64,000 nt of DNA from Knoellia subterranea KCTC 19937. Lineage in GTDB: Bacteria; Actinomycetota; Actinomycetes; Actinomycetales; Dermatophilaceae. Below are positions 19,197-23,661 of the stretch, one piece after another. Made by a program: the position numbers and the translations under genes. The notes under the pieces are model-generated. The model had not been told where the DNA came from and did no database searches. It worked only from the letters and a program-made list of their open reading frames with translations. Location of the stretch: contig NZ_AVPK01000002.1 of NCBI RefSeq assembly GCF_000768685.1, positions 434,001 to 498,000 on the forward strand, given 5' to 3'. Each line of letters begins with the position of its first letter. The stretch's first letter is position 1.

Positions 19197-20249
19197 GTGA
19201 CGACGACCCCGACTTCGCTGCCCGCACCCCGCACGCCCGACCCCCACTCTGCACCGACACTGCGCTGGGGCGTCCTCGGCCCCGGCTACATCGCCCGGGC
19301 GATGTCGACGGCCCTCGCCGCCGAGACGGACCAGGTCATCCAGGCGGTGGCGTCACGCGACCTGAGCCGAGCGCAAGGATTCGCGGACGACTTCGGCGCG
19401 CACACGGCATACGGGTCCTATGACGAGCTGGTCAACGACCCGAACGTCGACATCGTCTACGTCGCGACCCCTCACTCAGAGCACCACGAGCACGCGCGGC
19501 TCGCGCTCGACGCAGGCAAGCCGGTGCTCGTCGAGAAGGCGTTCGCCCGCAATGCCGCAGAGGCGCGCGACATCCTCGACACCGCGCGGGACAGGGGTCT
19601 GCTCGCGATGGAGGCGATGTGGACGCGCTTCCTGCCGGGTGTCGACGTCGTGCGCCAGTGCCTCGAACAGGGCCTCCTCGGCGAGGTCGAAAACGTCTTC
19701 GCCGACCACGGCCAGCCACTCTTCCCCAACGGCCCGCAGCGGCTCTCCGATCCCGCACTGGCCGGCGGAGCCCTCCTCGATCTCGGCATCTATCCGATCA
19801 GCTTTGCCAACTTCGCCCTCGGCGGCATCACCTCCGTCGCCGCGACCGGCCGCCTCACCGATGAAGGCGTCGATGCGGAGGAGACCGTCCTCGTGACGGG
19901 CGCCGGTGGCCGTGGGGTGCTCCACGCCACCATGACCTCGCGCACGCCCACGACCGCGAGCATCAACGGCACCGCCGGGCGTCTCGAACTCGGCGACCCG
20001 GACGATCCGAACAACCGGTGGTACGCACCGTCGCGGGTCCGCTTCGTCTCCCGCGATACGACGACCGACATCTCGTGGGAGCCCGAGGACCGGATGCACG
20101 GGCTGCACTTCGAGGCCTGCGAGGCGGCGCGACTCGTCGATGCCGGGCTGACCGAGAGCCCGTTGCTGCCCGCTGCCGAGACGCTCCGGATCATGGAGGT
20201 CCTCGACGAGGTGCGCTCACAGATCGGGGTGCGCTACCCCGGCGAGTGA
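19197..20249 (+). CDS. Gfo/Idh/MocA-family NAD(P)-dependent oxidoreductase
   Basis: 350 aa. N-terminal Rossmann fold with [15 protein letters not shown] (GxGxxA-type nucleotide loop, near residue 24) and the family marker [12 protein letters not shown], where the Lys of the EKP-like motif (here EKA) is catalytic. The C-terminal domain shows [14 protein letters not shown]. This form of the motif and the [15 protein letters not shown] strand match sugar or trans-dihydrodiol dehydrogenase-like members. Substrate unknown. GTG at 19197 was chosen because the open frame before it overlaps uvrB. The last 16 bases overlap the convergent coaE gene. Confidence 0.86.
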
Positions 20250-21409
20250 CCCTCGTGGCCCACGACGCGGTCGTGCACCGAGTCGAACCACGGCTCCTTC
20301 GCCTCGGCGTAGTCCCCCGTCGACAGCACCCTTGACGCCAGGTCCTGCTTGAGCTCGGAGTACTCCCTGCGCCCCTCCGGGTCGGCCCGAAGCCAGTCCC
20401 GGAAACCCAGCGCCCAGCGGTAGCCCGGGCCGTCGACCTCACGCACGTGGACGTGCGCGACGCGTCCCGGGTCGGCACTGCCGTGGAACCGCTTGGGCCA
20501 CTCCGTCCCGTCCTTGCCGTTGTCGTGCGCCACTCCCCCGATCCGCGGAAAACCCTTGCGGGACAACGCTTCCAGGAACGCGGGCTCGTCCGCGTCAGCG
20601 AGCGACCGCACCCCCACCTGGAGGTCGATGACGTCCTTGGCCAGCAACCCGGGCACCGCGGTGGATCCGATGTGCTCGATGGCAACAGCCGTGTCCCCCA
20701 AGGCTTTTCGCAGTCGCGCGATGAGGCGTTCGGCCTGTGCGGGCCACTCCGCGTTGGGCTCACTGAGCGTCAGTGCGTCAGGACGACGAGCCCGTATGCC
20801 GTGAATCAGGTTCTCGTTGAACGGTTCCAGCCGTTCGGCCCAGATCCGTCGCACCCGCTGATCGAGGTGCTCACGGGTGCCGTTGTTGTCGAGCCAGATG
20901 TCGGCGGCGGCCCGGCGCGCGTCGTCGTCGGCCTGGGCGTCGATCCTGGACTGCGCGTCCTCGGCGCTCATCCCCCGGTCGCGGACGAGTCGGGCGAGGC
21001 GCTCCTCCTCCGTCACGCCCACAACGATGACGAGGTGGTAGTCGGCGCCCATGCCCTTCTCGACGATGAGTGGCATGTCGTGGACGAGGATGGCGTCGTC
21101 GGGTGCGCCCGCCATGAGCTCGGCCGTGCGCTTCCAGATCGCGGGGTGGGTGATGCCCTCGAGGTCCTTCAGCGCGGCCGGCTCCGTGAAGACGACACGT
21201 CCGAGAGCCGGACGATCGAGGGCTCCATCGGAGCCGAACACCGCGTCACCGAAACGTTCACGGATGGCCTGGAGGGCCGGCATACCGGGTTCGACGACCT
21301 CGCGGGCCACGGCGTCCGCGTCGACGACCACGGCACCGAGGTCCCCAAGCGTGCGAGCCACCGTCGACTTGCCGGAACCGATTCCGCCGGTCAGACCCAC
21401 ACGAAGCAT
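20234..21409 (-). CDS. coaE: Dephospho-CoA kinase fused to UPF0157 (GrpB) domain
   Basis: Last enzyme of CoA synthesis: phosphorylates dephospho-CoA. 391 aa from ATG 21409 (MLRVGLTGGIGSGKST), P-loop near residues 8-15. The kinase domain runs to about residue 195 with DADAVAREVV, the LID region DRGMSAEDAQSRIDAQ and the terminal WLDNNGT. From about residue 225 a UPF0157/GrpB nucleotidyltransferase-like domain follows (AIEHIGSTAVPGLLAKDVIDLQV ... HVHVREVDG). The same two-domain CoaE is known in mycobacteria, where the extra domain has been linked to folding or regulation of the kinase. Start is 6 bases after TACGTT, leaderless. Confidence 0.95.
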   Translation of the reverse strand: MLRVGLTGGIGSGKSTVARTLGDLGAVVVDADAVAREVVEPGMPALQAIRERFGDAVFGSDGALDRPALGRVVFTEPAALKDLEGITHPAIWKRTAELMAGAPDDAILVHDMPLIVEKGMGADYHLVIVVGVTEEERLARLVRDRGMSAEDAQSRIDAQADDDARRAAADIWLDNNGTREHLDQRVRRIWAERLEPFNENLIHGIRARRPDALTLSEPNAEWPAQAERLIARLRKALGDTAVAIEHIGSTAVPGLLAKDVIDLQVGVRSLADADEPAFLEALSRKGFPRIGGVAHDNGKDGTEWPKRFHGSADPGRVAHVHVREVDGPGYRWALGFRDWLRADPEGRREYSELKQDLASRVLSTGDYAEAKEPWFDSVHDRVVGHEGHSPG

Positions 21410-21446
21410 GGGGTCAACGTACCCGTCACGACATAGGGTCGCCTTC
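21410..21446. promoter_or_regulatory. Divergent leaderless promoters of coaE and kinase remnant
   Basis: Minus strand: TACGTT (21421-21416) then 6 bases to the coaE ATG. Plus strand: TAGGGT (21434-21439) then 7 bases to ATG 21447. Both promoters lie within 37 bases, so they share their upstream sequence. Confidence 0.5.
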
Positions 21447-21746
21447 ATGACCTCGGCCCTCGTGGTGGGTCTCGTGCTAGCGGGGCTCGCCGTCCTCGCA
21501 CTCGTCTGGTGGGTGACCCGGCTCCGAGCCGCACTGGCACGGAGCCAACACGAGATCAGTCGGCTCGAGGGGGTGGCCCTGCGCCGGGCCGACCAGGTGT
21601 CCGTGCTGAGCCACGAGGTCCGCACGCCACTCGCCCTCATCAAGGGCCCTTCTGGTGCGTGTCCATCGCGGCGGCCATCGACGGCGAGGTCGTGGCCGGA
21701 GTCATCGCTGCACCCGCCCTGGGTGAGGTCTATGCCGCCGATCTGA
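21447..21746 (+). pseudogene. Sensor histidine kinase, N-terminal remnant
   Basis: ATG 21447 opens with a membrane helix (SALVVGLVLAGLAVLALVWW), a short coiled segment and the HisKA H-box VSVLSHEVRTPLALIKG with phospho-accepting His56. Similarity stops abruptly at codon 67 (near 21646). The rest of the kinase (dimerisation helix 2, ATP-binding HATPase domain) is absent; the frame runs 32 more codons through inositol monophosphatase sequence in the wrong frame to a stop at 21746. It still has its leaderless promoter. A normal kinase of this type would be 350-450 aa. Confidence 0.85.
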
Positions 21747-22171
21747 CCGGCGTCACCGTCAACGGAGTCCCCGCCGCCCCACGACGCCGTGAGCGCGAGC
21801 TCGACTCGCTGGTCGTCTCGACGTTCCCCCGCGACCTCGACCTCGAGACCGTCGGCGACAACGCCCTGGCCGCGAGCGGGCGCCTCGTCCACGCGTACGG
21901 AGCCGTGCGCACGCTCGGCAGCGGCGCCCTCGGTCTGGCCATGGTTGCCACCGGACGGGCGGACGCGACCTTCGACCTGCACACGAACGCGTGGGATGTC
22001 GCCGCCGGGGCCTTCATGGTGCGACTGGGCGGTGGCCGCTATCACGGCTGCGAGGACGGCGTCGTCGACGACGACCCGCGCACGTCCTACCAGCGCCCGG
22101 CCTACTGGTCGACCGCCGCCGACGTGGACCACCCCACGCTGCGCGACCTCGTCACCGAACTCGCGACCTGA
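21647..22171 (+). pseudogene. Inositol monophosphatase-family, C-terminal remnant
   Basis: From PFWCVSIAAAIDGEVVAGVI onward this is the second half of an IMPase-family phosphatase, about 174 residues, with intact WDVAAGAFMVRLGG (metal/substrate Asp in WDxAAG) and a normal C-terminus DLVTELAT. The first half, holding the metal-binding GEE and DPLDGT motifs, is missing, so it cannot be active. Its frame is offset from the kinase remnant upstream, and it has no start of its own in context. The join is at or near GGGCCC (21644-21649), where both parents could share GCCC. Confidence 0.85.
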
Positions 22172-22210
22172 TCCCCCGGCGGGTTCGCCCTGCCGACTCC
22201 GCTCAAGGAA

Positions 22211-23158
22211 TCAGGTGCGGCAGCCCGCTGGCGTGAGCCCACAGGACAACTGGGGGTACACGTATTCGACGGACGGACGTGCGGCCGCGATCAGGGTCGG
22301 GTCCACGCGTTCGGTCCCGGCGATCGGACCGGATGCCCCCGACAGGGCCACGGCACTGCCGGAGCGGACAGCGATCACGACCGATCCATGCGAGACCGTC
22401 GGCTGGTTCGCGAAGGAGCTGAGTGCCAGACCGTCACTCCACGGACCACTGAGCGCTTCGACGATCCCCCGGGTGGTTCCGTCACTGGCGGTGACGCAGG
22501 CGCGACTCTGGGAGCGGAGCTCGTTCATGAACGCCGAAGCATCCGCAGTACTCGGGAAGAACAGGTAGGCCTCGCGGTCGGCACGCCCATCGGCCGCACT
22601 GGTGCTTCGCGAGTCGTAGCTGTAGGCGTTGCCCCGCGCTGCGACCGGGAAGATGTCGGTGCCACAGGCGCCAGCAAAGCTGCTCGATGGCCTCCACGAG
22701 TCGGCGTGCAGCAGGCTGACAGGTCGTTGGGTCGTTGGAGTCGAACCACTCGCGGACGGCCGCGGCCCGGTGGATGCGCTCGCACCGGGGTTCGGTGCCG
22801 CAGTGGACGAGGAGCTCGCCGTCGGCGTCGACGACACCGACGTCGAGGCCGTCGCTGAGGGGCTTGCCGTCGGCGACCCGGTTGGCGAACCGGTCGGCGT
22901 GACCACGGGCGTCCCGTCGAGGATCGGCGATGGCCTGGCCGGCAGGGCCTCATCGGGGCCGATCCGGTCGCTCAGGGCGAATGCGCCGACGGCAATCACG
23001 GCGGTGGCGGCGGCCACGGCGACGGTCCCGAGCATCCGGCGGCGGCGTCGGCGCGCCCGGCCAGCGCCGACGATGTGCTCGGCATACTCCTGCGACATCG
23101 GTGTCGGCGAGACGGACCGTAGTCGGGCGCGCAGCTCGTCTTCGCTGATCGGGCTCAT
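22211..23158 (-). CDS. Putative membrane anti-sigma factor with Ser/Thr/Pro-rich stalk
   Basis: 315 aa. ATG 23158 overlaps the stop of the sigma-factor gene (ATGA), so it is the coupled partner. Residues 1-40 are cytoplasmic (MSPISEDELRARL..., then a run of six Arg), followed by one membrane helix (about 44-63), a stalk of about 85 residues made almost only of Ser, Thr, Pro, Ala and Gly, and an extracellular domain of about 145 residues with four to five Cys (ACGTDIF, RACV, LSCGLTPAGC) that may form disulfides. No zinc anti-sigma motif is visible. The position behind an ECF sigma gene is the main evidence for function. Confidence 0.72.
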   Translation of the reverse strand: MSPISEDELRARLRSVSPTPMSQEYAEHIVGAGRARRRRRRMLGTVAVAAATAVIAVGAFALSDRIGPDEALPARPSPILDGTPVVTPTGSPTGSPTASPSATASTSVSSTPTASSSSTAAPNPGASASTGPRPSASGSTPTTQRPVSLLHADSWRPSSSFAGACGTDIFPVAARGNAYSYDSRSTSAADGRADREAYLFFPSTADASAFMNELRSQSRACVTASDGTTRGIVEALSGPWSDGLALSSFANQPTVSHGSVVIAVRSGSAVALSGASGPIAGTERVDPTLIAAARPSVEYVYPQLSCGLTPAGCRT

Positions 23159-23661
23159 GACAACCATCCTTCTTCGACGCGCTCGCTGTTCATCCGGGCC
23201 AAGGCCCGTGAGCAGGTCGATTTCACTGTTCCTACGGAAATCTCGAGTTCTTCTGCGACCTGACTCTCAGTGAGGTCGAGGTAGTAGCGCAGGACGATGA
23301 TGGTCCGCTCCCGCGTCGACAGGCCGGCGAGTTCGTGCACGATCGTGTCGCGCTGCTCGACGGTGGTGTGACCCGCTTGGGTGCTGAGATGGTCGTCGCC
23401 GATGTCACCGAGTGCGGGCTCGAGGTGGCGTCGACGCCACCGGTCCGTGTTGAGGTTGACGAGGATCCTGCGCGTGTATGCGTAGGCACCCTCGGGCCGG
23501 ACCTTCCCCCAGTTCAGGTAGGTCCGGATCAGCGCTTCCTGCACGAGGTCCTCGGCCGCCGTCCGGTTGCCGGTGAGCAGCACCGCCACTCGCGACAGGC
23601 GCGTCTGCACCCCTTCGACGAACGCCGTGAACTCGGCGTCCATCCGCTCCGGTGTCCCCAT
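23155..23661 (-). CDS. SigE-family ECF RNA polymerase sigma factor
   Basis: 168 aa. ATG 23661 with GGAGGGG a few bases upstream; the frame is open to 23757 but that part holds the promoter. Region 2 shows FTAFVEGVQTRLSRVAVLLTGNRTAAEDLVQEALIRTYLNW and AYTRRILVNLNTDRWRRR; region 4 shows [44 protein letters not shown]. This is the short actinobacterial SigE family. An ECF-type promoter directly upstream suggests autoregulation, and the overlapping next gene is a probable membrane anti-sigma, giving an envelope-signal circuit. Confidence 0.92.
   Translation of the reverse strand: MGTPERMDAEFTAFVEGVQTRLSRVAVLLTGNRTAAEDLVQEALIRTYLNWGKVRPEGAYAYTRRILVNLNTDRWRRRHLEPALGDIGDDHLSTQAGHTTVEQRDTIVHELAGLSTRERTIIVLRYYLDLTESQVAEELEISVGTVKSTCSRALARMNSERVEEGWLS

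Follow-up and report, generated by a model that had tools for sequence, protein, structure and literature searches.

How does the start of a histidine kinase gene come to adjoin the end of an inositol monophosphatase (IMPase)-family gene that lies in a different frame? The question is raised by one locus in a window of 64,000 nucleotides, the whole stretch of DNA analyzed here, which represents positions 434,001-498,000 of contig NZ_AVPK01000002.1 of Knoellia subterranea KCTC 19937 (G000), one strain in one draft assembly. The feature is very probably the scar of a deletion of approximately 5.8 kb inside a six-gene operon.

Two truncated genes beside coaE

The kinase remnant (21447..21646 of the window, plus strand) consists of the first 66 codons and two further bases of its gene. 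Translation of the frame starting at 21447 gives a membrane-type segment and the H-box SHEVRTPLALIKG, after which the kinase sequence ends at LIKG and the frame runs on to a stop, 99 aa in all. In Pfam, the HisKA match of this part is confined to positions 2-20 of 66 (E 3e-4), the score of 21.2 bits lying below the cut-off of 26.9 because, as expected, only a third of the domain is present. A complete sensor histidine kinase can therefore be ruled out, since this portion of HisKA alone is left and HATPase_c is gone; both domains are whole in the kinase of the carrier Janibacter sp. HTCC2649 (G006). The IMPase-family remnant (21650..22171, plus strand) comprises the last 173 codons and the stop. 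It lies in an open frame, 21641-22171, different from that of the kinase, whose translation is that of an IMPase-family protein from FWCVSIAA onward, with no stop or indel in the frame of this half. Its match to PF00459 (Inositol_P), covering positions 103-241 of 271 (E 2.2e-24), reaches 86.8 bits against a cut-off of 27 bits, and it therefore counts as a fragment of the family. It is not a whole PF00459 protein: the GEE/DPIDGT region, located upstream of the junction position in the G006 IMPase, is missing, and the WD motif is retained. GEE, DPIDGT, and WD are metal-site motifs of this fold. The preliminary description of the locus had a kinase running normally through its H-box and then becoming an IMPase end in another frame, with both functions lost. 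Translation, Pfam, and five relatives agree with the former, and the domain content, a third of HisKA without HATPase_c and an IMPase without GEE/DPIDGT, agrees with the latter. Caution is thus needed in annotation: what reads as a 220-aa “inositol monophosphatase” is a fragment, and so is the 99-aa “histidine kinase” frame.

Divergent to the kinase remnant lies an intact gene of 391 aa, coaE (20234..21409, minus strand), named by eye and from the preliminary description, which shares 51.8-80.1% protein identity with the best stretch in all ten other genomes compared. Between the two lies the -10-like element TAGGGT (21434..21439, plus strand), separated by 7 nt from the start codon of the kinase; both the hexamer and its spacing are identical in the window and in all five genomes that carry the operon. 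The arrangement of hexamer, 7 nt, and start codon may represent a conserved leaderless-type promoter, and the earlier proposal that the kinase carries a promoter gains from this conservation in five relatives. On the right, the neighbor is AntiS (22211..23167, minus strand), labeled by eye and situated beside a sigma-factor-like ORF. The names coaE, uvrB, rpsA, AntiS, SigF, and PYRDOX are all labels given by eye.

The parental arrangement in relatives

A similarity search with window positions 21300-22300 as the query returned matches in 49 of 58 genomes, K. subterranea included, many of which cover only the start of coaE (about query positions 1-112). Among the 58, both halves were strongly matched in five genomes besides K. 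subterranea itself, every one of them a congener: Knoellia aerolata (G001), K. flava (G004), Knoellia sp. Soil729 (G005), Janibacter sp. HTCC2649, and K. locipacati (G008). The Janibacter genome (locus L037) falls within the genus of the window by genome search. In these five of the eight congeners, the two parts (76-81% DNA identity) keep their order and strand beside coaE but are separated by 5,767, 5,776, 5,778, 5,794, and 5,841 bp. Such a recurring arrangement is far beyond chance, and the comparison of the region downstream of coaE that had been proposed as a check thus spoke in favor of a deletion.

It can be observed that the intervening DNA completes an operon situated between coaE and the PYRDOX gene, the order of which is identical in all five carriers: kinase, PhoB-like regulator, binding protein, permease, ABC ATPase, and IMPase. 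In G006, these encode a kinase of 272 aa (HisKA and HATPase_c), a response regulator of 241 aa that contains Trans_reg_C, a solute-binding lipoprotein (363 aa with the start adopted here), a permease of 586 aa with two BPD_transp_1 stretches, an ATPase with TOBE_2 (378 aa, its start having been picked by eye), and an IMPase of 298 aa, the first third of which falls within the missing piece. Compared with its relatives, the window therefore lacks the rest of the kinase, the regulator, the binding protein, the permease, the ABC ATPase, and the first third of the IMPase. The preliminary description had correctly expected a response regulator in the removed DNA, where the relatives indeed have a PhoB-like one; its account was incomplete, as the complete three-gene ABC transporter of the operon was taken as well. 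Phycicoccus sonneratiae (L041) and a Micropruina MAG (L042) also have these six genes in this order; in both, the 18.5 kb around the operon contain no CoaE match above 40% identity.

The lost genes were also sought elsewhere in the K. subterranea genome. For the binding protein, no close copy turned up there, the best match displaying 23% identity (E 4.9e-11). When the DNA of the entire operon served as the query and the best 40 of 453 candidates were scored, at least 36 matches were obtained, namely the two remnants and 34 others; among the latter as listed, identity was 64-94% and the longest covered 640 bp of the ATPase part at 71%. The permease, ATPase, regulator, and remainder of the kinase were sought at the DNA level only. 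Neither search revealed a second copy of the operon. Moreover, IMPase-family matches number four in each of the five carriers and three in each of the three non-carriers, and K. subterranea has three full ones plus the half in the window. The features that mark a deletion scar were accordingly present: flanking parts with extra DNA between them in congeners, and deleted genes absent elsewhere, the operon as a whole being judged by DNA only. Since the halves adjoin here, are 5,767-5,841 bp apart in relatives, and the binding protein is absent, it follows that a deletion of about 5.8 kb destroyed the operon.

The junction and its age

The junction (21646..21650, strand not applicable) lies inside the run GGGCCC (21644-21649). 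On the left, relatives match the window up to 21646 (three genomes) or 21647 (two); on the right, the unbroken match begins at 21648 (one), 21650 (three), or 21652 (one), and the right side of G001 also matches 21646-21648 with a mismatch at 21649. The exact overlap between left and right was 0 in two of 25 pairs and negative in the other 23, values which refer to the sequences of relatives, not to the strain's own parent. At 21645, all five right-hand parents have T where the window has G; at 21648, all five left-hand parents have T where the window has C. This leaves 21646-21647 as the most that the two ends could have had in common. A shared stretch of 1-2 bp is conceivable from the mixed states of the relatives, whereas 6 bp is not. 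The earlier suggestion that both parents could share the six-base GC run is thus not supported by these sequences, and the run seems to have been created by the join itself. Ku is encoded in the genome, which makes end joining plausible, and Ku-dependent end joining is a candidate mechanism.

As reconstructed from these comparisons, the deletion starts just after the kinase H-box and ends in the IMPase a few codons past DPIDGT, so that four genes are missing entirely and both end genes lack their catalytic parts. It was probably a single event, with the ends joined through 0-2 shared bases, possibly by Ku. The strain would no longer be able to use uptake and dephosphorylation by the route of the operon. 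With the promoter-like element kept, the locus may still give rise to a transcript without function and to a kinase stub of 99 aa.

Selection on the remnants was then compared with that on the intact genes. Pairwise omega over 167 codons of the IMPase half was 0.135-0.219 for comparisons with K. subterranea and 0.131-0.307 among intact genes. Under a codon model, omega on the K. subterranea branch was 0.057 against 0.047 (2dlnL 0.15, p 0.69), and this half is changed at five of the 107 sites where the other five agree, the intact five genes changing at 3-7. Relaxed selection on this branch was accordingly not seen in the pairwise values, in the codon model, or on either of two topologies. Fixing its omega at 0.15 for the IMPase half cost 4.3 or 5.5 units of 2dlnL, depending on the topology, and values of 0.15 and above are rejected on both; if the half has evolved neutrally since it was truncated, the post-deletion share of the branch would therefore be about 10% at most. 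Since neutral decay is permitted for about a tenth of the branch at most, the deletion looks recent, as had been suggested. For the kinase half, the second topology gave a looser bound on the omega of K. subterranea, between 0.2 and 0.3. It should be noted that the G001 branch had an odd omega of 11.9 (p 0.009) in the 66-codon kinase alignment; little weight is placed on omegas from this alignment because it is very short and its estimates unstable. In the IMPase alignment, two other branch values were also odd, 0.109 for G001 (p 0.053) and 0.020 for G008 (p 0.073).

Assembly error, retained function, and gene loss

The operon might be intact in the organism, the assembler having dropped 5.8 kb. 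The missing piece is exactly what relatives possess, and the genome is a draft of 33 contigs, the junction being seen in this one assembly. Such an error is nevertheless improbable: the binding-protein gene has no close copy anywhere in the assembly, the stated completeness of which is 99.99%, and the whole-operon search finds only the two remnants in place. Assembly misjoins usually need repeats, and here the ends share 0-2 bases. Furthermore, the site lies well inside a contig of 532 kb, and three of the eight congeners are without the operon anyway. The preliminary description had left the choice between a recent event and an assembly error; the event does look recent and an assembly error has become unlikely, given the absence of the binding-protein gene. 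Even less probable is that selection has kept the joined remnant for some function, for instance as a kinase stub anchored in the membrane or as a protein of IMPase fold in a new role. The retained promoter-like element, the lack of relaxed constraint, and the undamaged IMPase frame would fit such a role, but the join is out of frame, so that no fused protein of both halves is made, neither the ATPase domain nor the GEE/DPIDGT region is left, and a recent deletion would be expected to show an omega just as low.

The deletion scar, by comparison, is an ordinary case of gene loss in kind. Bacterial operon loss by deletion, known from deletional pseudogenes, displays the same truncated end genes joined out of frame, the same intact operon in relatives, and the same absence in others. 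There is no difference in kind; the scar is fresh and both its ends are visible. Among the papers searched, none combined a Knoellia genome with a pseudogene or matched this type of operon as a whole. The locus offers a clean example of operon loss in which both breakpoints, the parental arrangement, and the absence of later decay can all be seen.

Predicted function of the lost operon

NCBIfam models were run on the proteins of G006. From kinase to IMPase, the best models were PnpS followed by PhoR, PhoB, PhnS2, PhnU2, PotA followed by PhnT2, and HisN; among the models listed, one alone exceeded its cut-off, TIGR01187 of the polyamine ATPase subfamily (355.8 against 355.6 bits). PhnS2, PhnU2, and PhnT2 belong to putative 2-aminoethylphosphonate ABC transporters; transporters of this compound are the subject of PMC8316502. 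The first two are the best models for the lost binding protein and permease, and PhnT2 is second best for the ATPase. The assignment of the lost genes to such a transporter is not supported, as the scores fall below the cut-offs (PhnS2 170.7 against 392.75 bits, PhnU2 261.4 against 593.25, PhnT2 375.4 against 457.7); unlike in those transporters, an IMPase gene adjoins the transporter genes here. No match to PhnX or PhnW over cut-off was found in any of the nine genus genomes, sub-cut-off matches alone being present, and the substrate therefore need not be a phosphonate. With PnpS and PhoR as the two best models for the kinase and PhoB for the regulator, the regulatory pair resembles PhoR/PhoB-type two-component systems. 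It differs from them in scores far below the cut-offs (PnpS 122 of 400 bits, PhoR 120.8 of 334.2, PhoB 174.8 of 296.2) and in a short kinase of 272 aa. The operon probably served to import a phosphorylated organic compound, with a PhoR/PhoB-like system in control, and to dephosphorylate it. An uptake pathway kept by five relatives is thus predicted to be lost in the window strain.

Distribution of the operon in the family

Across nine genomes, the locus is occupied by the operon in five and by the scar in K. subterranea, and three are without detected remnants (G002, G003, and G007). In these three, PYRDOX or AntiS closely follows coaE, the 13 kb searched yielded neither a kinase nor an IMPase match at E <= 1e-3, and TAGGGT was not found beside coaE. 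A tree was constructed from four neighboring genes with two outgroups, one without two of the genes and the other without one. G003, which lacks the operon, is sister to G006, which has it (support 98% protein, 100% nucleotide), and G007, also lacking it, is placed beside K. subterranea (65% protein, 96% nucleotide), several other nodes of the tree being weak. The simplest reading of this distribution is repeated loss of the operon, the alternative being repeated gain at one spot.

In the wider family, a close binding protein (E <= 1e-60) occurs in nine of 149 genomes drawn from a larger group, five of which are the carriers described above. In Phycicoccus elongatus (L040:8580-9540), a full-length IMPase lies directly after coaE as the sole operon gene there, with TAGGGT and 7 nt before its inferred GTG start. 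In the 18.5 kb around this place, a binding protein is lacking at E <= 1e-10, and nothing matches the kinase, regulator, permease, or ATPase at more than 40% identity. It is possible, though on balance doubtful, that the operon beside coaE is a module repeatedly trimmed to different extents in the family, with the scar as a natural intermediate. Its stages would then be whole loss in three congeners, a phosphatase alone in P. elongatus, kept behind the same putative leaderless-type promoter, and a fresh overshoot into the phosphatase in the window, and an organophosphate-uptake function would have been lost repeatedly.

Two minor differences at the locus can also be observed. The small PYRDOX gene, pyridoxamine-oxidase-like by eye, lies between IMPase and AntiS in G004 and G006 and is missing in the window; it is present at the locus in seven of the eight congeners and gone both in the window (22171-22211) and in G007, the likely sister of the window genome. 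Extra DNA is located between coaE and the kinase in G008 (L029, approximately 1.7 kb) and in G001 (L030, approximately 2.4 kb), and is absent from the other three carriers.
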